Below are positions 1,723-20,626 of a stretch of 41,798 bases of DNA, in pieces. A program made the position numbers and the translations under genes. The stretch's first letter is position 1. Each line of letters starts with the position of its first letter. The stretch comes from Candidatus Omnitrophota bacterium (lineage in GTDB: Bacteria > Omnitrophota > Gorgyraeia > Zapsychrales > Zapsychraceae), in NCBI GenBank assembly GCA_029568545.1, contig JAKQAH010000035.1:1-41798 (forward strand), given 5' to 3'. A model generated the notes under the pieces. The model did no database searches. It worked only from the letters and a program-made list of their open reading frames with translations, and was not told the origin of the DNA.

Positions 1723-3444
1723 ATGACCGGCATGACAAAAATAATTAGATCAAAAGAAAAGAAACGATTCGTGATCTACACCCGGTGCTCGACCGACGAT
1801 CAGGCGCAGGGCGATTTCACGACACTGGACGCGCAAGCGCATCACTGCAAAAACATGCTCGATGCGTTCGGCTATGAACTTGGAGAAATAGGAAAGAACG
1901 GAATAGTCAACGATGACGGCTATTCCGGAAAAGATTTGAACCGGCCGGGAATACAGCTGATCCTTGAGAACGTAAGGCAAAAGAAGAAAATTGACGGCAT
2001 AATTTTCTTCCGGCTCGACCGGCTCACGCGCAATACGCGCGACCTCTATGCCCTCATCGATTTATTCCGCGAAAAAGAAGTAGATTTTATTTCGGTAAGA
2101 GAAAACCTCGACAGCTCCACCGCGATCGGCCGCGTGGTTATAGGAATACTCGGCATCCTCTCCGCGTTCGAACGCGAGCTGACCGGCGAACGCGTGAAAG
2201 CCTCCGCGATCGCCCGCGTACGCCAAGGCAAATGGGTCGGCGGTTTCTTGGCGCACGGTTATAAACTGGAAAAAGACGGCGAACGCCTGCCAAACGGCAG
2301 ACAACCTCACAAAGTTGTTCTGGATCCGGAACTCGCGCCCAAACTCAGGATTATCTGGGAAATGGCGGCCAACAACAAATCGCTCATGGAGATCGGCCAA
2401 GAGCTGGAGCGGCAAGGCGTAAAAACCTGCCGCGGCAAAGTCTGGCGCAAACAGACATTGTCATCCGTCATCAAAAACCCTTTTTATAAAGGGTACATCC
2501 TCTACGCCAATGAACTTCACAAAGGAAATCACGAAGCGATGATCGAACCCGCGATCTGGGAGAAGGCCAATAGAATCGTCAAAGCCAAACTACCCGGCCA
2601 TGGATTCAGCAGAAGACCAAAAACATATAATTATTTATTGAGCGGACTGCTCAAGTGCGGGAAATGCGGAAGCCACCTGATATCGGCCTCCAACAAGGGG
2701 CGGGATGGAAAGAAGTTTCATTACTATATCTGCGGCAGGTCGAAACAAAAACTCGGATGCAATGAACTGGGCATCCCGGCCCCGGTCTTTGACCGGGCCC
2801 TGATCGGATACTTCCGGAAAGCCTCCCAGAACCGGGATATCATCATCAAAGGCATCGGCGATGCCATGCGCGAAGCCCAGCTCATGGCCGGGCGCATCGA
2901 CACCATGATCGCAGAAACCGAAGCCAAACTCAACGATTGCCAGCACGAAGCCAAGACCCTGCTGGATCTGGCCATGACCGGCACCGTAACGCAAGGCCCA
3001 GCTTATAAAAACAAGATGTCGGAAATAGATAACCAAATAATAATGCTCGAGGACAAGCTGACCAAACTTCGGTCACAAAAGTCGGCCAACGACATGACGG
3101 CCAACTCGGCCAATTACCTCCACGAAACCCTGCAGTTCGCCTTGGAATACCTCGACAAAGCCCCTGCGGATGCCCAGAAAAGCCTCATATTCGCCCTTAT
3201 AAAAGAGATTACGATCCATAGCGACGTAATTGACCTGCGGATGTACTTGGGCGATCCTGAACAAACCCTGCAGGCCGATATCCACGACTGCGAACACAGC
3301 CAAACCGCCGTAAAAAACAAAAACCCCGTTCCGGAATTACTCCGAAACGGGGCTGATGTTAACGATCAAGCGCTTGTTGCGCATGGTCGTCCAAAATGGC
3401 TCCCCCGCGAGGACTCGAACCTCGGACCCAGTGGTTACACTTGA
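1723..3444 (+). CDS. Large serine recombinase (resolvase domain, recombinase domain, zinc ribbon, coiled coil)
   Basis: FVIYTRCSTDDQ..., FFRLDRLTRNTRDL, SAFERELTGERVKASAIARVRQGKWVGG; zinc ribbon KCGKCGSHL...YYICGR...GCNE; start may be MTKIIRSK (1732); C-terminus runs into antisense tRNA sequence. Confidence 0.93.
   Translation: MTGMTKIIRSKEKKRFVIYTRCSTDDQAQGDFTTLDAQAHHCKNMLDAFGYELGEIGKNGIVNDDGYSGKDLNRPGIQLILENVRQKKKIDGIIFFRLDRLTRNTRDLYALIDLFREKEVDFISVRENLDSSTAIGRVVIGILGILSAFERELTGERVKASAIARVRQGKWVGGFLAHGYKLEKDGERLPNGRQPHKVVLDPELAPKLRIIWEMAANNKSLMEIGQELERQGVKTCRGKVWRKQTLSSVIKNPFYKGYILYANELHKGNHEAMIEPAIWEKANRIVKAKLPGHGFSRRPKTYNYLLSGLLKCGKCGSHLISASNKGRDGKKFHYYICGRSKQKLGCNELGIPAPVFDRALIGYFRKASQNRDIIIKGIGDAMREAQLMAGRIDTMIAETEAKLNDCQHEAKTLLDLAMTGTVTQGPAYKNKMSEIDNQIIMLEDKLTKLRSQKSANDMTANSANYLHETLQFALEYLDKAPADAQKSLIFALIKEITIHSDVIDLRMYLGDPEQTLQADIHDCEHSQTAVKNKNPVPELLRNGADVNDQALVAHGRPKWLPREDSNLGPSGYT
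3311..3352 (-). terminator. Rho-independent terminator downstream of tRNA-Asn
   Basis: Minus-strand CCCCGTTTCGG-AGTAATT-CCGGAACGGGG followed by TTTTTGTTTTTT; embedded in the 3' end of the recombinase ORF. Confidence 0.8.
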
Positions 3445-3972
3445 CCCGCTATTCCTAACGGAAGTGGACTTTCTCTTCACCGTCGGCTTAACGTTACGGT
3501 GGCAGGTGTAAAGTCTCTGCACGTTCCCTGAACACTTAGGATCAGGGCTTCGCTCAGGATTACCCGCCGGTTTCCCGGTTTGGGCTTCCCTGAATTAGCC
3601 TGCTGTTTCAACCGGCGTTTCCGCCGGAAGCTGCGTCTGAGCATGAATTTCACGATGACAATTGGCACAAACAAGAAGACATTTATCGATCTCTTCTCGT
3701 ACCTTAGTCCAACTTCGAGTATAACCTTTACTCGAAACACTGAAATCCTTTTGATCAGGATCTCGGTGATGGAACTCTAAGGCTTCGATACAGCGGTCAT
3801 AACCACAAATCTGGCATCGACCACCCTTATATTCAACTGCTTTCTGTCTCATTTTCTTACGTCTTTTATGGACAGCAGCAATTAAATATTGCCGGCGATC
3901 TTTGTATGTCCGCGTATCTTTTCTTGCCATTGCCCTCATCCATTTGCTCGTTCCGCCTTCGGCGGAACTCTC
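3438..3972 (-). mobile_element. Group I intron (resembles the IC3 tRNA-intron subgroup), 535 nt, inserted between anticodon positions 35 and 36
   Basis: 5' exon ends in U, intron ends in G; P-like AATTCAGGGAAGCC (3583-3596), Q-like AATCCTGAGCGAAGC (3547-3561), R-like GTGCAGAGACTTTACACC (3505-3522), S-like AAGAGAAAGTCC (3466-3477); P3 GCAGG/CCTGC, P4 TCAGG/CCTGA, P7 GACTTT/AAAGTC and P8 CACCGT/ACGGTG found by eye. Confidence 0.92.
3595..3939 (-). CDS. HNH endonuclease encoded within the group I intron (putative homing endonuclease)
   Basis: CQICGYDRCIEALEFHHRDPDQKDF...CLLVCANCHREIH, an HNH/zinc-finger signature; start may be the second Met. Confidence 0.88.
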   Translation of the reverse strand: MRAMARKDTRTYKDRRQYLIAAVHKRRKKMRQKAVEYKGGRCQICGYDRCIEALEFHHRDPDQKDFSVSSKGYTRSWTKVREEIDKCLLVCANCHREIHAQTQLPAETPVETAG

Positions 3973-9375: not shown

Positions 9376-10923
9376 TTACGGATTATCGATTTTTTGCCAG
9401 GAAACAACTTTGATCAAGTTCACGGGATCGCCGCCGATCATCCCGGGAGGAAGATTTTTAGCAGCCTTCGGGACCTGATAAATACTCGGAACTTGGTCCG
9501 TAATATTGAAATGATTGGCAACAATGGTTCCCATCAGGTCAGTTTGTTTGGCCGTACGCACTTCTCCTTCGGCATAAAACAGGCCCATCACATCCCGTTG
9601 AGCGCTGTTTCCCACATTGATATTCTTCGGGGTCATAATTCCCAGTATATTGGTCGGAAAGGAGTTATTGCCGGCCGTATATAAATTAACATCTATGGTC
9701 GCATTCCCGGTCACCAGGATCGACCCTGTGCCTGTGTAATTAATAGTTCCTCCAGTCAGAGACAAATTGTTATTGCTCTGAACATAAATCATCCCCTTGA
9801 CGGTCATATTTCCCGCGCCGTCCATCGTGACACAATTCGTGGCACAATCCCCTAAGGTAAAACTTGATGCGGGAGTTACAGCCGCCAGCTCATTCGTTAA
9901 GACAAGCCCGTTGTCCGCGAAATATTCATAATAATCCTTACTGGGATCATCCGGATAGGGATCGCTCAAACTTGGGAATGTGACAGCATCGCCGAGATCA
10001 TAGGCATTGGAAAAACCGTTATCGGAATAAACGTTACCGGACCCTTGATTTCCGTTATATCCATCCGTGACAAAAACCCCATCGACCTTTTCTTTCGTGG
10101 TGTTGCCAACGACATTGGGTTCCCCCACTGATGAAGAACCGCTTAATCCCACAAGGCCTCTTTTAACGCGAAGTTCCGCATTTAAAGTCTCCACCCCCAG
10201 ATCAACACCAACATCTGTCGTCGGAAGCGCCGGCACCTTTGCTCTAAGCAGAGGGTCTAAACCAGTATAATTGTTGCGAACAAGCTCTGCCGTCCCTCCC
10301 AGATCGATGGCATTATCCCCCGGATCAAGGCCATCCCCCAGGATATGGACCGATCCGCTCACATTGACATTCCCGTTCACCCAGCCGCCGGAAGAGCCGG
10401 AACCTCCGAAAATCGCGTTATCCCACGGAGAGAGGCTGACAATACGGACATAAACACGAACAGTCTGTCTGATGCTGCCCACCATTCCTGTCGACCGGAT
10501 CCAGATATCGTCCGATCCCGAACTTTTCAGACTAATTGAATAAGAACCATCCCCAAGAACTGTCGATGGATAAGCATTATTAGCGGCATCTGACGCATCA
10601 GGGAAAGGAAAATACCCGTTCGCATCGGTATCGGTCGAATCATATGTCCATCCGTTAATCTCGTCGTCAGACCAGTCTTCATCGGCCGAAAAGTCCTTTT
10701 TAAGATTATAGATCATCCGTTCAACGCCGGCTTCGGCCAAATAAAATGCTTGCGTGATTTTCCGTTGGGACTCCGCCGCCCTCCCCTCATTGGAACTTGC
10801 AATCAAAAAGGCCGTTCCCAGAAGCAACAATACCGTGATCAATAAGTAGGTGGTCAACAGAACGCTGCCTTTTTCATTCGCTATTCTCAAAAGAAATGTT
10901 ATCTTGCGACCCATCGTCATCAT
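9376..10923 (-). CDS. Pilus assembly PilX-like protein with N-terminal TM and long Gly/Asn/Ser-rich repeats
   Basis: NEKGSVLLTTYLLITVLLLLGTAFLIASSNEGRAAESQRKITQAFYLAEAGVERMIYNL. Confidence 0.75.
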   Translation of the reverse strand: MMTMGRKITFLLRIANEKGSVLLTTYLLITVLLLLGTAFLIASSNEGRAAESQRKITQAFYLAEAGVERMIYNLKKDFSADEDWSDDEINGWTYDSTDTDANGYFPFPDASDAANNAYPSTVLGDGSYSISLKSSGSDDIWIRSTGMVGSIRQTVRVYVRIVSLSPWDNAIFGGSGSSGGWVNGNVNVSGSVHILGDGLDPGDNAIDLGGTAELVRNNYTGLDPLLRAKVPALPTTDVGVDLGVETLNAELRVKRGLVGLSGSSSVGEPNVVGNTTKEKVDGVFVTDGYNGNQGSGNVYSDNGFSNAYDLGDAVTFPSLSDPYPDDPSKDYYEYFADNGLVLTNELAAVTPASSFTLGDCATNCVTMDGAGNMTVKGMIYVQSNNNLSLTGGTINYTGTGSILVTGNATIDVNLYTAGNNSFPTNILGIMTPKNINVGNSAQRDVMGLFYAEGEVRTAKQTDLMGTIVANHFNITDQVPSIYQVPKAAKNLPPGMIGGDPVNLIKVVSWQKIDNP

Positions 10924-10924
10924 T

Positions 10925-11485
10925 TTAGTTCCTCATCTGGATCTCAAAGGTGAGATCTGCGGTGATCGAAGTCCCTTTTATCGTGTTTTTTTGAGCCTGA
11001 AGAGCGACTTCGATTATGTCAGGAGATCCCGGTTGTCGCGTAAAACCTAATGTCGTGATATTCTGGGCAATCACTTTTGTTGTCCCGCCTTCGATCCTTT
11101 GAAGCTGATCGCCATCCGTTCCGCCGAGCACAAACCGTGTCGTATTTGCGCTCCAGGTAATGACGTTCCCGGAAACGCCGCTGGGCAAATAAAAAGTGAT
11201 GGACGTATATGCCGTTCCATTCGCGCTTGTGGGCCCAACCGTTATGGCGCTCGGAGATGTCTCCCGCAGATCATCTTTCATCCAATCCATCGCCTTGCGC
11301 AGCTCCTGCTGCAATTCCACTTGAACGCTGTTGACCTGCCAGGAGGATTCTCCCACCAGCAGCACCGTGTTGATCGCCCCGGCAAGAACGGCAAAGATCA
11401 ATACGGTGACCAAAACTTCAATGAGCGTATAACCCCGATTATTTTTTCCGCTCACCCGTCGCTGATCGATCATTGTCATATGCAT
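10925..11485 (-). CDS. Prepilin-type N-terminal cleavage/methylation protein (PilW/minor pseudopilin-like)
   Basis: NRGYTLIEVLVTVLIFAVLAGAI, prepilin signature. Confidence 0.88.
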   Translation of the reverse strand: MHMTMIDQRRVSGKNNRGYTLIEVLVTVLIFAVLAGAINTVLLVGESSWQVNSVQVELQQELRKAMDWMKDDLRETSPSAITVGPTSANGTAYTSITFYLPSGVSGNVITWSANTTRFVLGGTDGDQLQRIEGGTTKVIAQNITTLGFTRQPGSPDIIEVALQAQKNTIKGTSITADLTFEIQMRN

Positions 11486-11515: not shown

Positions 11516-12019
11516 TTATCGTTTTGCGATCAGACTGATAACGGTGGCGATCGAGAAAAGATCGCCCTCCGCATCTACCGTCTCCCCGGAACCGACTGCG
11601 CCGTCCAGATCAAAGTCCCCGCCTATGATCCGGCCGTATTTATCTTCCCAGCTGGCGACGATCTTGATCCGCAACAGATCAGCATCGCCTGCCGTAAACT
11701 CGTCAATATAAATAACGCCCATGCCGTTCGTCTGGCTCAACGCGAAGGTATGGCCCGGCGTGCCGCCTGAAGCATAATCCGTCGCGATGGAATCGTAATC
11801 GTAATTGCGGATCTCTTCCATTTTTCCCTGAAGCTCGCTCATAACCAGCGTTTTATTCTGAGACAGTTCGGAAAGCGCGGAACAGCGGATGAAGACCTGG
11901 ATCAACCCGACCAGCGTAAACCCCAATATCAGGACCGCCAACAGAAGTTCAACCAGCGTAAACCCCGCAAAATTCCAAGAATTTTTTTTCATACGATTTG
12001 CCTTGTGAAGATACAGCAC
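11516..12019 (-). CDS. Prepilin-type N-terminal cleavage/methylation protein (PilV-like)
   Basis: FAGFTLVELLLAVLILGFTLVGLIQVF; start may be MKKNSWNF. Confidence 0.88.
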   Translation of the reverse strand: MLYLHKANRMKKNSWNFAGFTLVELLLAVLILGFTLVGLIQVFIRCSALSELSQNKTLVMSELQGKMEEIRNYDYDSIATDYASGGTPGHTFALSQTNGMGVIYIDEFTAGDADLLRIKIVASWEDKYGRIIGGDFDLDGAVGSGETVDAEGDLFSIATVISLIAKR

Positions 12020-12103
12020 TGATTGAATAGTATTATACTCTATTCCAAACTCGCCATAAAAGAGAATATCAATTATTTTGCGCCCCTTCTTGCCAAAACG
12101 ATC

Positions 12104-12137
12104 ACAAAAAAACCCATCTCAACGAAAAAGATGGGTT
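12104..12137 (-). terminator. Riboswitch expression-platform terminator
   Basis: Minus-strand AACCCATCT-TTTTCGTTG-AGATGGGTT followed by TTTTTG. Confidence 0.85.
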
Positions 12138-12320
12138 CTGATCGGTCCCTGGCTTGATCCGGCAACTGGCTGCCCTGGCTTTCAGGGCCCTATAGCTTTG
12201 CCACGGCGCCGCTACATACTAATAGCGTTTGACTCCGCCGAGCCCGACGCAGTTCCCAAACGAAAGTTTTGGAACGAAGTCGGGGTCCTCACCTTGCGAT
12301 GAGTTTGCCTTTTTCGTTGA
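12138..12320 (-). ncRNA. Candidate c-di-GMP-I (GEMM-like) riboswitch upstream of the pseudopilin operon, with an apparent insertion
   Basis: GGCAAACTCATC-GCAA-GGTGAGGAC (P2 with GNRA loop) and GCAAAGCTATAGGGCCC...AGGGCAGCCAGTTGCCG (P3 side) match the GEMM pattern; TCAACGAAAAAG at the 5' edge is perfectly complementary to the terminator segment CTTTTTCGTTGA. Confidence 0.7.
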
Positions 12321-12368
12321 TCAATCTTGTCTATTAAAAGTGTAAAACACAAAAAGATAAATAGCAAA

Positions 12369-13217
12369 TCAGTTGGCGGGAACCAAAATTTGCTTGGGGA
12401 AACTTTCTGTTACGGCTCCGCTTCCGACGCTGGTTGGCCCCTGATCGTTCGGCGTTCCCCCGAGAGCTGACGGCACATTGCTGGCGGTAACCGCCCCATC
12501 CTTTCCGACAGGTTGGCCGTATTCATCATAATAAAATTCAGCGACCAGTTTCCCGTTTTGATCGTAGGATTTTCTAAACCCAACAGGGTCTTTGACCGTG
12601 AAATACCATTCATATTTCAGTTTTCCGTCACGGAAATAAACCTTGCCGATCCCCGCCTCCTTGGTCTCTGATCCCTGCCGGGCATCGGTATAATCCTCGG
12701 CCATCCGCACCGTTCCGTCATAATAATATTCCGTACTGGTCAAGATCTTGCCGGATTGATACTGCGCTTCCTGCTTTAAAACGCCATCGCTGTAAAATAC
12801 CTTGGCGGGACCTTCCCGCTTCTGGTTCCGGTAATATTCCACGCCGTACGTCTCGTTAGATTCGTTGATAAACTTCACTTTTCCATCGGGGATTTGCCCT
12901 TCCTGATCATACGTCACCCCTTGGGAAAACTTATTCTGAGCGATCTCCACCCCATCCTGATAAAACATGTTGATTTCATATTTTCGGTCGGGAGACAAGC
13001 GGGTCTTCCGGATGACTTCCTTGCCGGCAACGACTTTGGGCCGTTCTTTTTGCGGAGAAACCTGCGCAACTTTTTCGGCAACAGGAACCGGCGCCGATGT
13101 GATCTGTCTGGTCTGTTCCTGGAGCCAGCGGTTCGCCATAACGATGCCGATGACCATCACCGCGACGATCACAATCGCCAGAAGCCCGACATGATTTCTA
13201 GAAGTTGCATTGGCCAT
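12369..13217 (-). CDS. YwqK/MORN-variant repeat protein with N-terminal TM
   Basis: Repeated xxxYYxxGxLKxExxYxxGK units (VFYSDGVLKQEAQYQSGKILTSTEYYYDGTVRMAEDY). Confidence 0.75.
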   Translation of the reverse strand: MANATSRNHVGLLAIVIVAVMVIGIVMANRWLQEQTRQITSAPVPVAEKVAQVSPQKERPKVVAGKEVIRKTRLSPDRKYEINMFYQDGVEIAQNKFSQGVTYDQEGQIPDGKVKFINESNETYGVEYYRNQKREGPAKVFYSDGVLKQEAQYQSGKILTSTEYYYDGTVRMAEDYTDARQGSETKEAGIGKVYFRDGKLKYEWYFTVKDPVGFRKSYDQNGKLVAEFYYDEYGQPVGKDGAVTASNVPSALGGTPNDQGPTSVGSGAVTESFPKQILVPAN

Positions 13218-13812: not shown

Positions 13813-14331
13813 TTACGAGGGTTTGAAGTGCCCGTGGAAGCGGGCCGAGGATCTCTCCGCATCTCTGATATGCAATTGATGCTTATCGAGAAATTCTATG
13901 TCGATAGCTTTCATGTTCTGCAGCTGATGCGCGCTGCCGTCGGGTAGCTTAAAATACTCTTCCAGCCTTTTCTCAGAAACTCCCCGGACAAACTTTCTCC
14001 GGGTCTTTTTGCCAAAACGCACCTTGTTATAAAAACTCCATCCCCGGATCATGAACACAATAAAAATAATGACCGAGATATAAACGAATTTCAACTCCTG
14101 GAGGCCGATGAGACCGCCCAGGTCGACCATGTGGCGGAAAAACACGCGGAAGCTGACCAACCACAACAGGATGATCAAGAGCGGCCGGCAAAGAAAAATC
14201 CAGATCGCCCAGCCGAGGGTCGTTAAACTGAACTCGATACGCCGGCGGGTTACTTTCAAGGCTTCCGGCCTATTGATGATCAGGTCATCAAATTTCCGTC
14301 TTTTTCGTAACTCTTTTTCCCATTTTTCCAT
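13813..14331 (-). CDS. pgaD: PgaD-like inner-membrane protein
   Basis: Two TM segments and position after the PgaC-like gene; start MEKWEKELRKRRKFDD chosen over a longer overlapping ORF. Confidence 0.65.
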   Translation of the reverse strand: MEKWEKELRKRRKFDDLIINRPEALKVTRRRIEFSLTTLGWAIWIFLCRPLLIILLWLVSFRVFFRHMVDLGGLIGLQELKFVYISVIIFIVFMIRGWSFYNKVRFGKKTRRKFVRGVSEKRLEEYFKLPDGSAHQLQNMKAIDIEFLDKHQLHIRDAERSSARFHGHFKPS

Positions 14332-14342
14332 TTTACATTCCT

Positions 14343-15566
14343 CTAAAATCCCCGGTCCGGGCTCTCCCAAACGGCAGGAGTCCCTTTCTTTTTCAAGAGC
14401 GCCTTCGGCAGCCCGATGATCGTAACGGCAGCGTTCAAGATCCAATAAACACCGGGATACCAGATCAACCAGAAGAACATCTTGGTGATCCCTTTCTCGA
14501 ATCGGCTGTCAATGAGAAGCCCAATCAAGACCTGGCAAAGGCAAACGATCGCCAGAATAACACCCGTCCATCCGGGAAAAATGCTCCGGACTTCAATCCC
14601 GGGCGGCAAATCGATGATTTTATCAAGAAAAAACATCACGATGGTCAGCGTAAAAAGATACGCCCATAAGACGCTCAAAACATATTCGAAATAGATCGGC
14701 CAAATCCGCCGTTGCGCCCAATCCAGCATGGACCGGCCGTATTTTCGCAGAACTTCGCTTCCTCCCTGCGCCCAGCGCAATCGCTGGCGCCAGAGCCCTC
14801 GGACCGTCTCCGGCATCAGGATCCAGCATAAAGCGCGCGGCTCATAGCGGATATCCCAAAACTTCAGCTGCAGTTTCCAGCTGATATCGATATCCTCGGT
14901 CACCATATCGTTGCTCCAAAATCCGACGGACATCAGGGCCGACTTGCGGAACGCCGCGATAACGCCCGAGACCGTGTAAATCTTCCCGATAATGCGCTGC
15001 GTGCGCTTGATCATCCCGACGATCGATGAAAATTCTCCCACCTGGATCTTCCCGACTATGCTGGTGCGGTTGCGCACGCGCGGATTCCCGGTGATCGCGC
15101 CGACCCTCGGGAAGTTCAGGAAATGCCACATGAAAAACTTGATCGCTTTCGCATCCAATAGCGCATCGGCGTCGATGCAGACCAAATATTCCCCTTTGGC
15201 CGCCATCGAGGCCATCGTTAGCCCCATGCCTTTGCCCTGATTGGTCGTCATATTGATGACGCGCATGTGCGGGCGCGTTCTCTGCAGGCCTTTCAAAAGA
15301 TGCAAGGTCTTATCGGTCGACGCATCATTGATCGCAATGATCTCGAGATTCCTGTATTCCTGCTTGTCCAGATACTCGATGGTCTGAATGATGCACTCTT
15401 CCTCGTTGTGGCAGGGAATGAGAATGGACACCAGCGGCTCTTCCGGCAAGACTTCAGGATAATTTTGCCGCTCGCGGAAAAAATGATAGCAGAACCCGCC
15501 GGTCATCAGGACAAACGCCATGAAGAGCGGATAATAGAACACAAAGCTGTAAATAAACTGCATCAT
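14343..15566 (-). CDS. pgaC: Poly-beta-1,6-N-acetylglucosamine synthase PgaC (family 2 glycosyltransferase)
   Basis: VSILIPCHNEEECI, AINDASTDKT, LVCIDADALLD, TEDIDISWKLQ, QRLRWAQGG. Confidence 0.94.
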   Translation of the reverse strand: MMQFIYSFVFYYPLFMAFVLMTGGFCYHFFRERQNYPEVLPEEPLVSILIPCHNEEECIIQTIEYLDKQEYRNLEIIAINDASTDKTLHLLKGLQRTRPHMRVINMTTNQGKGMGLTMASMAAKGEYLVCIDADALLDAKAIKFFMWHFLNFPRVGAITGNPRVRNRTSIVGKIQVGEFSSIVGMIKRTQRIIGKIYTVSGVIAAFRKSALMSVGFWSNDMVTEDIDISWKLQLKFWDIRYEPRALCWILMPETVRGLWRQRLRWAQGGSEVLRKYGRSMLDWAQRRIWPIYFEYVLSVLWAYLFTLTIVMFFLDKIIDLPPGIEVRSIFPGWTGVILAIVCLCQVLIGLLIDSRFEKGITKMFFWLIWYPGVYWILNAAVTIIGLPKALLKKKGTPAVWESPDRGF

Positions 15567-17506
15567 TTCCAGTCCCTTTTATAAGGAAAATTTTCTACAG
15601 ACATCATGCTACGAATAATATTTTTTTGGGGATGATCCTTCACATAATCGTCCGGATAATACGCAATATGCCGGGCCCCCGAAGCTACAAGCGCCTCCAA
15701 CCACTGGTTGACAATCTTGCTGTTAATCCATCTTTGTTTTTTCCAATCGAACGTTTGAACTTTAAAAACTGTTTTCTCAATCCCTTCGGGATGCGTCTTG
15801 ACGGCTGCCACAAGTTCTTTGAGCCATTTCTTGGGATTCTTGACCTCTTCCAGATACGGATAGGCCATAATGACCACATAATCGTAACGCTCAAGGCTCC
15901 GGCCGTAATCTTGAGAAAAACGCGCAATAGCCGATTCATCCAGGACAACAGGAGCATACAATGTTCTGGCCGATTCAATTTCGGGCCAGTATTTAGCAAC
16001 CGTCATGAGAAGATGCTCACTCAACGCATTGATCACCGTAACCTTCTCATCGATCCATTCGGATGTTTGGCCAGCATCGATCATCTTCGGATCCGTCAAC
16101 TCATCCTGGCCGGTAATTTCCTGATATTTTTTTATGGCATCGGGATGAAAATCTTCCCGGCTGTTCAAATAACCGTCATCCTGAAAAACAATGCCATCGA
16201 TACCGGCGTAGACCGCCAAATCTTCATAAAGTTTGGTCAATATCTCCCTGACTTCGGCGCTGAACGGGCTCAGGCGTTTGTACCACGCCGATGTGACCTG
16301 CGTTTCTCCCGAAACATATTCGCGGACATAAAGGTCGTCGCGCGCCATATCTTCCGGAAGTTCCAAACTTAGCATCGGCATCCAGGCATAAACCTTGACT
16401 CCGGCACGGGTTTTCAACTGATGGGCCACGCGGCTGAAAAGATCCTGTTTGACCGGCAATATCCTGTTCGGAAAATAAACCTCACGGATATTCCCCGTCG
16501 CATGATCATCACAAAAAGCCTGCAAATAAACCGTTGTCGGCCGGAGGTCTTTGATCCGGTCGAGAAAAACCCCCAGGTTCCTTTCCGTTTGCTCCGGGTC
16601 GGGATCATAGATCATATCCAAGTCGGCTTGAACAATGCGGTTTTGCGGATACAGATTAGGGGCTAATTTCAAGTCTTTAAGTAAATCAACGATCCGGGGG
16701 TTTTCGTAAACCAGGAACCGATTGATTTGATCAAAGGGGCTCTTCGTAACCACCTTATCATTCAGAGTAAACCCGATCTGAAACCCGACCTTTTTTGCCT
16801 CTTCGACAGCTATTTCGTTATAAAGACCATACGGCCACACAAGAGCCCTAATGGCCTGCCCCGTCTTCTTTTCTAATATCTCCTTGGACATCTTTAGATC
16901 GGCATAAACACGTTCCTGATAGGCCTCCCGGCTTTCGTATGTTCCCGTTTGCGTATCGAACGCACGGCTAACGGCCGCCGCCGCTTTGTTCCCCTGAGGA
17001 TTGTACGTGATGCCGGTATGCAAATTCTGGGAATGCGAAACAACCTCGACATAGGGGCTCTCGGCAACTTCCCGGATCTGGTCCCAATTCATCAGCGGAT
17101 GCATGACGTATTCGGGCCTCTCTCCGTCGATCCAATTGGTGACCACCGCCAACATGCTGGGGATCTCATATTCTTCCAGAAGCGGATAGACAAAGTCATA
17201 AAAACTGTCGTAGGCATCATCGAACGTCAGCAAAATGGTTTTTTCCGGAAGTTCCTTATCCCCGTTCTTGGATTGGATCAAATCGTCGAGGCTGATAAAT
17301 GTATACCCGTGCATCTTAAAATATTCAATCGTATCGATCAGGCTTTTTTGATCAACCCCCGTATTGTCCAAATCGACCTCTTTAGGCACATCGTGATAGC
17401 AGAGAATGATCGTGCCTTCATAGGCCCGCAAAACAGGCGGTGATACGAAGAAAAAGGCGGCCGCCAAGAGCGCCACTATCCCGATTTTTTGTTTTCTGTT
17501 CATCAT
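15563..17506 (-). CDS. pgaB: PgaB-like polysaccharide deacetylase with C-terminal glycoside-hydrolase-like domain
   Basis: IILCYHDV, ILLTFDDAYDSFYDFVYPLLEEY; C-terminal VKVYAWMPMLSLELP...DGIVFQDDGYL. Confidence 0.93.
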   Translation of the reverse strand: MMNRKQKIGIVALLAAAFFFVSPPVLRAYEGTIILCYHDVPKEVDLDNTGVDQKSLIDTIEYFKMHGYTFISLDDLIQSKNGDKELPEKTILLTFDDAYDSFYDFVYPLLEEYEIPSMLAVVTNWIDGERPEYVMHPLMNWDQIREVAESPYVEVVSHSQNLHTGITYNPQGNKAAAAVSRAFDTQTGTYESREAYQERVYADLKMSKEILEKKTGQAIRALVWPYGLYNEIAVEEAKKVGFQIGFTLNDKVVTKSPFDQINRFLVYENPRIVDLLKDLKLAPNLYPQNRIVQADLDMIYDPDPEQTERNLGVFLDRIKDLRPTTVYLQAFCDDHATGNIREVYFPNRILPVKQDLFSRVAHQLKTRAGVKVYAWMPMLSLELPEDMARDDLYVREYVSGETQVTSAWYKRLSPFSAEVREILTKLYEDLAVYAGIDGIVFQDDGYLNSREDFHPDAIKKYQEITGQDELTDPKMIDAGQTSEWIDEKVTVINALSEHLLMTVAKYWPEIESARTLYAPVVLDESAIARFSQDYGRSLERYDYVVIMAYPYLEEVKNPKKWLKELVAAVKTHPEGIEKTVFKVQTFDWKKQRWINSKIVNQWLEALVASGARHIAYYPDDYVKDHPQKNIIRSMMSVENFPYKRDWK

Positions 17507-17523
17507 TTTACCTTTTCACCACT

Positions 17524-17602
17524 GTCATTCTGAGCGAAGCGAAGAATCTAGACCGACAAGATTCTTCTACCCCATACTTAAACGATGGGGTATCAGAATG
17601 AC
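17524..17602. repeat. Palindromic repeat between pgaA and pgaB
   Basis: GTCATTCTGA (17524-17533) and TCAGAATGAC (17593-17602), nested AGAATCT/AGATTCT and CCCCAT/ATGGGG arms. Confidence 0.8.
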
Positions 17603-17608
17603 GAAATG

Positions 17609-20600
17609 TTAAAACTTAAACCTTAGCGTCGTGTAAACATTCAGCGCATCCGTGCCTTCCCCGTCATATTCGTTCATGCTGTAGGTCGCCCCGATCAGCC
17701 AGCTCTTGGTGTCGGAGAACTGATGGTCCTGCTCATAACGGATATATCCCACGTCGCTGCTTCCGAAATTATCCTGCCATTTTTTTCCCACCCCGACATA
17801 CATGCGGTCGACCCAGGCTTTGTCATAGCGCCGGAACCATGTATGTTCGACCATCGGGACGAGATAGAACGAATAAACTTCCTCAGGGCTGAAATAGCCG
17901 ACGTCCTGGTCGGCAAAAGTTTCATAGCTGAATTCCGTTCCAAGGCGCGTTTTCCAATAAGCAGACGTGGTCAAAGCTGTATCCGTCCTCCAAAAATAAT
18001 TAAAATATTCGTTATCATCCGTAAAATCTTTATAAGAAACCCCGAGCGTCGTATCAAACACTTCGCTGGCCCGATAAGTGGCCGACAATGTGTAGCGGTC
18101 CGCCTCGACGCCATCCGCTCTTGACCGCGAAGGAATATCCAACGTATTGGATTCATACCCAAAATCAAAGGTCCAATGATCATCCGGCTGGTAGCGGACT
18201 TCCCCCAAAAATCCCAGTTCATCAGTTTCCTCATAATCGCCGGTCAAAGCGCCTACCAGGCGCCAAGCGTTGTTGACCTGCCATTCATCCCCAATTCTGA
18301 ATTTGCGCGCAATCTCGTTGCCGTCTACCTGATTCGTTTCGCGGCGGATGATCTCGGCGAACAAATTATGATGAAACCCGACCGGTTGATCTCCGCGCAG
18401 CGAAAGCGTGAATTCTTCATCCCCTGGCCATTCAGTCGTATAGCTGCCGCTAAACGTCACCGTGGACATTTCCTCCACTTCAAAAGCGCGTTGGAGGCGC
18501 TGCGCGTGTTTATTAGTCGGCTTCTTCTCTAATATGGCCTTGAGCTCTTCCCGCGCCTCTTCTTTCTGCATGTTCTCATTGAGCGCCCGGGCGTACCCGA
18601 TACGGGCGGATATCAGCGTATCATCGATCGTGCGGACCGCTTTAAAATCTTCCAACGCCCGGCGTTTCCAGCCGCGATATAAATGATTATGGGCCTCCGC
18701 CGTTCTTAAATCCGTATTAAACGGCGATACTTTTTTCACATCTTTAATATATTTTTCCGCTTCTCTTAAGCGGTCCTGGTACATCAACAACCACGCCTTG
18801 TTGAAGGCAATGTCCGCCTTCTGCCAGTTATCTTGCAAAATCCCGCGCTCGATGATCTTCTCCGGCGTTACTTGGTCGATCCGGTCCAATTTCTCTTGCG
18901 CTTCTTTAAACCTTCCCAGATCGACGAGCGTATAGTACACCGACATTTGCACATCAAACGATGGATCCGTTTGGGCCAATCTGTTAAAAATTTCCAATGC
19001 TTCTTCGGGCTTCTCGAGATAGAGGTAAGCATCTGCCGCCGACCGTTCAACCCATGGCGGGACCTCTGTTCCTTCCCGGACAAGAGCCTCATAGGCGTCG
19101 ACAATCTCCTGCATCTTCTCTTCCTGCCGCAGCGCCAGGAACCGATCCCATTGAACCCGTTGATAATTCTCCGACACTTTTTCATCTTCCGGATTTTCCG
19201 AGGATGCGCGTTCATATTCCTCTTGGAATTGGTCGATCTTCTGCAAAGCCAACTTCGATTCCTCCCAACGGATCTCATGCATCGGAACGTTCGTCCGCGC
19301 GCGCTCGACTACGACAGCATCAACAATATCGGGATGCTGTTCCGCTTCCCTAAGAACAATGCTTGTCGCGCCGAGATCCATCAAGCTCCTGAGTTTGAGG
19401 TTGAATGCCGCACGATTATCGGGAAAGATCTTTAGGATTTGGTCATAGACTTTCACGGCCTTCCAATATTCGCCGGTCGCATCATAAATTTCGGCCTTGA
19501 GGAACATCGCTTCCTGTTGCTGCGGATCCGCCTTTAAAACCTCGTCGATCAAACTCAAAGCTTTTTCTGTATCCCCTTCTTCCATATTCGACCGGATAAA
19601 AGCCAACTGGACCCGATTCGCATACTCTTGTTCCTCGATGGCTTCAACATAGGGAGCAATATATTGCCAATGCTTTTCCGGCAATGCGATCTCCTTATCG
19701 CATCTTTTATAGGCGCGGGCGACTTCTTTAAGAAAATACGGGGCCGGATCCTGATCGATATTCATCTGCTGATAATCCGAAACGGCTTGCTCAAAATTTT
19801 CCTGCCAGATGTAGATGACAATGCGGTCCATTGCGATCTGCTGCGATTTATTCTCAAAAACCTCCAGCCGATCAAGAAGGCCTAACGCCTCATTAAATTG
19901 ATCCTGGCGGGCAAAGGCAATAGCCTCATCATAAACCAGATAAAACCCTTCGTTCATATCGCTTAATATATCGGCTGGCAGAGAATCCCCGGCCTCTTTT
20001 TTGATCTGTTCGATCGCATCAAAGAATCCCTTCCACTGTTTCTGGGAAGCGTAAAGCAGCGCTTGTAAACTTTGCAAGCGCAATGCGTCGGAATGGTCCT
20101 CTACGGCCTTGCTCAATAGGTTCTGGGCAGATGCAAGATCCCCGGTCTGGACCAAGGCATAGATCAGGTTGATCTTTACATCTATATCGGTGGGATCTTT
20201 TTGAAGAACATCTTTCGAGAGGTCAATAGCATCCGCATAACGCCCGACTTCTTTGAGAGCTTTGATGATTTCTTTCAATACCGAATCCGGCAAATCAGCC
20301 CCGGAATTCTGATCATAAACAGCCAGCGACTCTTCATATTTCTCCGCCCAAGCCGAAATAGCGATATAGTCGGCAAGGATCCCGGGATCTTCCGGGTATT
20401 CATGATAGGCCTTTTGGATATAGCTATAAGCGGAGATCAAATCACCATTGCGGGCATATTGAACAGCCTTGTCGTGATCGCTGAGAACGATCGGCCCGAC
20501 AGTTTGCTCAATGTCCGTGATAATGGGAATCGTTTTCTCTACGCTCAGGTCTTCCCCATAACTATTAGCCGGACATAAGCAAAAAAGAGCGATCGAAATA

Positions 20601-20626
20601 TATATGACTTTTCTTTTAAATGCCAT
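17609..20626 (-). CDS. pgaA: PgaA-like poly-GlcNAc export porin (TPR plus beta-barrel)
   Basis: Signal peptide, long TPR array, C-terminal alternating beta strands ending LNVYTTLRFKF; first in a pga-ordered operon. Confidence 0.9.
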   Translation of the reverse strand: MAFKRKVIYISIALFCLCPANSYGEDLSVEKTIPIITDIEQTVGPIVLSDHDKAVQYARNGDLISAYSYIQKAYHEYPEDPGILADYIAISAWAEKYEESLAVYDQNSGADLPDSVLKEIIKALKEVGRYADAIDLSKDVLQKDPTDIDVKINLIYALVQTGDLASAQNLLSKAVEDHSDALRLQSLQALLYASQKQWKGFFDAIEQIKKEAGDSLPADILSDMNEGFYLVYDEAIAFARQDQFNEALGLLDRLEVFENKSQQIAMDRIVIYIWQENFEQAVSDYQQMNIDQDPAPYFLKEVARAYKRCDKEIALPEKHWQYIAPYVEAIEEQEYANRVQLAFIRSNMEEGDTEKALSLIDEVLKADPQQQEAMFLKAEIYDATGEYWKAVKVYDQILKIFPDNRAAFNLKLRSLMDLGATSIVLREAEQHPDIVDAVVVERARTNVPMHEIRWEESKLALQKIDQFQEEYERASSENPEDEKVSENYQRVQWDRFLALRQEEKMQEIVDAYEALVREGTEVPPWVERSAADAYLYLEKPEEALEIFNRLAQTDPSFDVQMSVYYTLVDLGRFKEAQEKLDRIDQVTPEKIIERGILQDNWQKADIAFNKAWLLMYQDRLREAEKYIKDVKKVSPFNTDLRTAEAHNHLYRGWKRRALEDFKAVRTIDDTLISARIGYARALNENMQKEEAREELKAILEKKPTNKHAQRLQRAFEVEEMSTVTFSGSYTTEWPGDEEFTLSLRGDQPVGFHHNLFAEIIRRETNQVDGNEIARKFRIGDEWQVNNAWRLVGALTGDYEETDELGFLGEVRYQPDDHWTFDFGYESNTLDIPSRSRADGVEADRYTLSATYRASEVFDTTLGVSYKDFTDDNEYFNYFWRTDTALTTSAYWKTRLGTEFSYETFADQDVGYFSPEEVYSFYLVPMVEHTWFRRYDKAWVDRMYVGVGKKWQDNFGSSDVGYIRYEQDHQFSDTKSWLIGATYSMNEYDGEGTDALNVYTTLRFKF

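Follow-up and report, generated by a model that had tools for sequence, protein, structure and literature searches.

The window, a 41,798-nt contig of a Candidatus Omnitrophota bacterium, carries on its minus strand a leader of about 220 nt located 5′ of a run of pseudopilin-like genes (Table 1). By reading of the sequence, positions 12324 to 12103 of this strand hold a full c-di-GMP-I (GEMM-I) aptamer followed by an intrinsic terminator. An initial sequence-only reading was correct in placing an insertion-bearing GEMM-I riboswitch ahead of pseudopilin genes, and gene and domain annotation confirms that a pseudopilin-type operon follows the riboswitch. Just upstream of the riboswitch and pseudopilin genes is a pga-like biofilm locus (13813-20626, minus strand), in which pgaA-, pgaB-, pgaC- and pgaD-like genes occur in order, consistent with poly-N-acetylglucosamine production; a tRNA-Ser gene and a MORN-repeat protein (12369-13217) are likewise located upstream of the leader. 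Elsewhere in the window, a group I intron (3445-3688, minus strand; RF00028, 71.8 bits) is directly followed by an apparent tRNA 3′ end (GGTTCGAGTCC...GAGCCA). An HNH-like reading frame is found upstream of this intron, and a serine-recombinase-like ORF (1723-3444, plus strand) ends at its edge.

Table 1. Coordinates of the leader elements and neighbouring genes in the window.
Feature	Position	Strand	Basis or comment
P1 5′ strand UUGAUC	12319-12324	-	pairs with 12159-12154; forms in the spliced-aptamer fold
UCAACGAAAAAG, P1 end and J1/2 to G20 (12309)	12309-12320	-	predicted antiterminator 5′ strand
P2 CTCATC-GCAA-GGTGAG with G42 A43 C44	12285-12303	-	P2 itself 12303-12288, GAC 12287-12285
Insert hairpin 1, 42 nt, CTTCG-type palindrome	12243-12284	-	folding, similarity searches
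Insert hairpin 2, 41 nt, directly abutting hairpin 1	12202-12242	-	degenerate; resembles hairpin 2 of L203
G45 C46 A47 A48 A49 G C, proximal 2-bp helix strand and J2/3	12195-12201	-	alignment
P3 arm (GGGCCCTGAAAGCCAGGGCAGCC), conserved bulged G83 at 12170	12168-12190	-	alignment
C92 (12162) and P1 3′ strand GATCAA (12159-12154)	12154-12162	-	spliced-aptamer fold
Intrinsic terminator, stem 12139-12109 and U-tract	12103-12139	-	loop region CUUUUUCGUUGA (12130-12119)
First pseudopilin-like gene 3′ of the switch, ATG at 11992	11516-11992	-	N_methyl, E = 6e-4, just under the Pfam cut-off
Second pseudopilin-like gene	10925-11485	-	N_methyl, E = 1.4e-8
Third gene of the run, 515 aa, PilX-like by inspection	9376-10923	-	no Pfam match
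PgaC-like glycosyltransferase 2	14343-15566	-	domain annotation
PgaB-like polysaccharide deacetylase/GHL13	15563-17506	-	domain annotation
PgaA barrel	17609-20626	-	domain annotation

Both halves of the GEMM-I pattern are present, as first proposed, one running from the P1 5′ strand to GGAC (12324-12285) and the other from GCAAAGC to the P1 3′ strand (12201-12154). In Vc2, residues G20, A47 and C92 contact c-di-GMP (PMC4744006), and C44 and G83 form an interhelical pair (PMC3764141, whose residue numbering we follow). The three ligand residues are intact in the window (G20 = 12309, A47 = 12199, C92 = 12162) and occupy invariant alignment columns; C44 (12285), G83 and the GNRA tetraloop of P2 (GCAA, 12297-12294) are present as well. 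Since the ligand residues and the interhelical pair are in place and the genome encodes GGDEF proteins (seven GGDEF domain matches), c-di-GMP is the predicted ligand. Relative to RF01051 (Vibrio cholerae Vc1/Vc2), the window shares P1, P2 with its tetraloop, P3, the ligand and interhelical residues and a terminator platform, but has 83 nt forming two abutting hairpins between C44 and G45 and scores below threshold in Rfam. The usual form, in which P2 is continuous and GGAC leads directly into GCAAAGC, is thus not found here; we did not count a continuous P2 as essential because about 100 otherwise complete relatives depart from it in the same way.

At gathering threshold Rfam returned no match at the riboswitch stretch, most likely because of the insert. 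A permissive cmscan yielded RF03167 (c-di-GMP-I-GGC), the best-scoring model of the clan, at 27.5 bits (E = 1.5e-4; gathering score 59), with an alignment that leaves a 102-nt stretch, insert included, undisplayed. A covariance model built from 10 uninterrupted relatives only, with the window left out, recovered the aptamer of the window, insert and all, with a score of 46.1 bits (E = 2.7e-13). After removal of the insert the window aligns cleanly with its orthologues, two-sided changes occur in 10 of 17 consensus pairs when the spliced window is aligned with 12 related aptamers, and the fold of the whole leader lies 4.2 sd below shuffles. A chance resemblance with no riboswitch at the locus, which the failure to attain Rfam gathering thresholds might suggest, is practically negligible given the E-value from the independent model, the orthologous aptamers that relatives have at this position and the terminator downstream of the aptamer. 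We rejected the RF03167 label, as the consensus of that model reads GCGAA (G47) and the window reads GCAAA; carrying A47, the window is predicted to form the canonical ligand pocket. The GEMM-Ib variant that recognizes 3′,3′-cGAMP has an A at position 20, and was set aside for the window, which has G at 12309.

The insert occupies 12284 to 12202, exactly between C44 and G45, close to the "about 85" nt first estimated. The CCCGAC...GTCGGG enclosure noted in the sequence-only reading is hairpin 1, and its CGCTA/TAGCG hairpin is contained in hairpin 2 within a larger CGGC/GCCG stem. In the minimum-energy fold a 4-nt linker separates the two hairpins of the window.

Downstream of the aptamer, J1/2 is perfectly complementary over 12 nt to the terminator loop; 16 of 1,000 shuffled terminators pair equally well overall with the 5′ strand. 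In folds of successive prefixes the antiterminator is the minimum-energy state at 207 to 214 nt, where the terminator is still incomplete, and the terminator wins once it is complete. We therefore predict from these models an off-switch, a sign that depends on folding-energy differences of only a few kcal/mol. Binding of c-di-GMP would hold P1 and J1/2 in the aptamer, the terminator would form and the genes would be off; with no ligand, J1/2 would pair with the terminator and transcription would go on. The pseudopilin genes would thus be controlled by a c-di-GMP-I riboswitch with a transcription-terminating platform. In some relatives, judged by eye, the P3 3′ strand is apparently used against the terminator instead.

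That the insertion inactivated the aptamer and left a decaying riboswitch appears very unlikely. The insert adjoins the pocket and the fold of hairpin 2 in the window is poorer than that of most others, as decay would have it, but the conserved residues, P1, P3 and the terminator are all intact, and interrupted aptamers as a group keep both their 3′ aptamer motifs and their terminators (79 of 100 interrupted, 57 of 84 uninterrupted; random, 58 of 400). This retention of terminators disfavours widespread decay.

The aptamer of the window is one of many of the GEMM-I class that are interrupted at this point. A second aptamer in the same genome (C1:7736-7862) has a different 47-nt insert at the same position, and about 100 others, mostly from Omnitrophota, have inserts of 25 to 95 nt at C44/G45 whose sequences are unrelated. 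A family search with a gap of 25 to 55 nt gave 9 matches (reversed-pattern control, 0), one of which, L071, has its hairpin pair on the opposite P2 strand. A phylum search with gaps of 60 to 90 nt gave matches in 41 of 384 genomes (reversed-pattern control, 0), and a scan of GTDB genomes gave 100 stretches. The named cases after parsing are 62 Omnitrophota, 4 Auribacterota, 2 Desulfohalobiaceae and 1 Planctomycetales; about 40 parsed cases are left that bear no phylum label, and most of these belong to genomes of the phylum from which the window derives. Chance pattern matches in unrelated phyla (e.g. L114, L126, L142, L151) were set aside.

Two hairpins were found in 106 of 122 parsed inserts. 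Exactly two abutting hairpins (at most one unpaired base) were found in 89 of the 122 pattern matches, a set that includes chance matches, compared with 122 of 12,200 (1.0%) mononucleotide shuffles. The departures that were inspected proved to be chance matches, to have misplaced end points or alternative folds, or to contain only a few unpaired bases, and the insert in the real cases inspected folds as two abutting hairpins that make a four-way junction. A direct search with gaps of 6 to 32 nt found no single-hairpin insert among its 5 matches, which were 2 long first hairpins of doublets, 1 insert-free aptamer and 2 doublets (one of 25 nt). As MAFFT alignment of inserted aptamers misaligns the hairpins, the insert was judged by folding and shuffling rather than by pair counts. 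By eye, kissing-loop pairing between the two hairpins was not seen consistently.

Pairs of hairpins are also found at other points of the aptamer. On the P2 5′ strand, between the second and third base pair, a search matched 20 genomes out of 384 (control, 0). One of these matches, L302, arose by chance upstream, and most of the rest are paired ~21-nt hairpins. Two orthologues (G020, G030) have pairs in P3, G019 has pairs on both P2 strands, and G035 has what appears to be a second insert. Order-wide GEMM-I matches of 140 to 168 nt were rejected as examples of the same phenomenon, their extensions lying inside P3. This long-P3 form (L036 to L066) occurs about once per genome and has a conserved GCCGATAAAGG/CTTTATCGGC complementarity to the 3′ part of the leader. 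At L075/L088 (G024:C50), an aptamer with a two-hairpin insert and its terminator is followed in tandem by an uninterrupted aptamer. In the open-access literature we found no account of Omnitrophota riboswitches or of comparable inserts in GEMM-I, and as far as our searches show the two-hairpin insertion is undescribed.

Upstream of the pseudopilin orthologues, the riboswitch is interrupted in some genomes (G000, G004, G012, G019, G025, G035, G038, G020, G030) and uninterrupted in others (G002, G014, G046, G018, G040, G015, G034, G022, G008, G007). Within one genus the site differs by the doublet only: GGCAAACC runs directly into CATCG in G014, and 42 nt separate the two in G025. The tree of 19 orthologues needs at least seven changes between the empty and occupied states, and places occupied G004 outside a pair of occupied G000 and empty G002 in a clade with 100/99 support. 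The doublets of the window, G028 and G016 have the same orientation, and those of G004 and two G001 copies fit better reversed; these calls are only moderately strong because the identity differences are about 5 to 11 points. No target-site duplication was seen.

Relatives of some inserts are dispersed outside riboswitches. At E ≤ 1, the 83-nt insert of G028 has matches in 27 of 37 relatives; its hairpin resembles hairpin 1 of the window (87% over 38 nt, E = 6.7e-7). The full-length matches of the G028 insert (80 to 88%) are partly other riboswitch inserts (L229, L230 and L233, by their flanks); single hairpins of ~42 nt are found elsewhere in the genomes, with identity across families reaching 100% over 40 nt, and several stand beside tRNA genes. 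The hairpin 1 type thus has copies outside the locus in relatives; no second copy of the window hairpins was found in the window's own genome (78% complete), and hairpin 2 is too degenerate for firm assignment. A second family, in which each doublet comprises two 21-nt hairpins, has scattered copies in 10 of 51 relatives (control, 0), both within aptamers and at other locations. When all inserts were compared by local BLAST, dispersed relatives turned up mainly for the 82 to 84 nt CTTCG group, and most other types gave no dispersed copies in the sequence searched. A mobile origin is therefore supported for two families only, and we infer it for all other insert types.

Around 1501-1538 of L311, L320, L324 and L325, dispersed 42-nt doublets of hairpins interrupt apparent tRNA 5′ fragments (acceptor strand and D-arm) about 20 to 55 bases upstream of intact tRNA genes. 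In two genomes of one genus, a protein of about 430 to 450 aa is encoded directly 3′ of GEMM-I riboswitches (L070, 876-2147; L071, 1-1299, minus strand). Its IS200-type transposase domain (PF01797), by inspection without the HUH histidines, is fused to a membrane segment and another domain, and the protein is perhaps a domesticated transposase under c-di-GMP control.

REPINs have been described as REP sequences in inverted pairs that behave as one mobile unit (PMC3116915). Like REP/REPIN elements (PMC3733652, PMC3116915), the hairpins described here are imperfect palindromes of 20 to 40 nt that are dispersed in related genomes, some as inverted doublets; we regard the two as a close functional parallel and claim no membership. 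By eye, no GTAG or CGTC end tag was seen, and unlike REP/REPIN elements these hairpins lie at a fixed point inside a conserved riboswitch aptamer. An IS200-type transposase domain (PF01797) was found in 12 of 13 genomes tested. The pair in the window most likely descends from REP/MITE-like palindromic doublets dispersed in Omnitrophota, which probably entered GEMM-I aptamers repeatedly and were retained only if they arrived as a pair. Alternatively, the pairs could have grown in place without transposition, by template switching during replication or by short-palindrome duplication in helix-encoding DNA. The lack of visible target-site duplications and of dispersed relatives for many insert types fits such growth, as do the G013 and G024 hairpins, which look like inverted copies of each other. 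We consider it improbable, as 40-nt hairpins are 98 to 100% identical between families of the order, full doublets occur outside riboswitches and opposite orientations occur at one site.

From the general behaviour of RNA four-way junctions, the two abutting helices of the insert, placed immediately 3′ of C44 (the partner of G83 in P3), would turn the internal-loop region of P2 into a junction of this type in which the P2 halves could stay coaxial, and the pocket may form. We favour as the probable reading that the locus is a working c-di-GMP riboswitch, a predicted off-switch, which has absorbed a palindromic doublet at a point where the four-way junction leaves the aptamer stacked. The insert would then probably be near-neutral for ligand sensing. 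The sequence-only reading further suggested that the insert could add a sensing or tuning domain, which found no support: about 100 relatives share the architecture of two abutting hairpins and not the sequence, close orthologues are without the insert or have it in the opposite orientation, and the window hairpins are similar to palindromic repeats dispersed in relatives. A new sensing domain is thus a possibility without support, and a tuning effect is conceivable.

A broader version of this proposal takes the two-hairpin insert as a selected functional domain, namely a second sensor, a protein-binding site or a tuner of folding speed or affinity near the pocket. It would explain why about 100 aptamers adhere so strictly to two hairpins at a single point, and in the CTTCG type hairpin 1 has UUC internal loops and hairpin 2 has GAA loops, so that the strands can re-pair by branch migration. 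So strict an "always two" rule could reflect selection for a functional four-way junction. A selected domain nevertheless seems rather unlikely to us, since the inserts of different lineages have nothing in common in sequence, length or loops, orthologous riboswitches upstream of the same gene are without the insert or have it at other sites, and some hairpins match dispersed repeats. More speculatively, Omnitrophota GEMM-I aptamers may serve as landing sites for mobile palindromic doublets, some of which, such as the CTTCG pair, might provide a second conformational input. An abutting pair would make a four-way junction and the host RNA would therefore survive insertion, so that structured RNAs would act as a safe harbour for the repeats; this account is less likely than not.

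Under the favoured reading, a riboswitch class tolerates very different inserts beside its predicted pocket provided that they form two abutting hairpins, and small palindromic repeats become linked to the evolution of regulatory RNA. The natural pairs of occupied and empty sites are available for testing the two-hairpin rule. Because aptamers of this form fall below Rfam thresholds, existing annotation understates c-di-GMP control in Omnitrophota. Finally, where the inserted hairpins look like inverted copies of each other (L074 and L079 from G013, L075 from G024), a single long hairpin is an alternative fold of the insert, which is possibly a bistable element.
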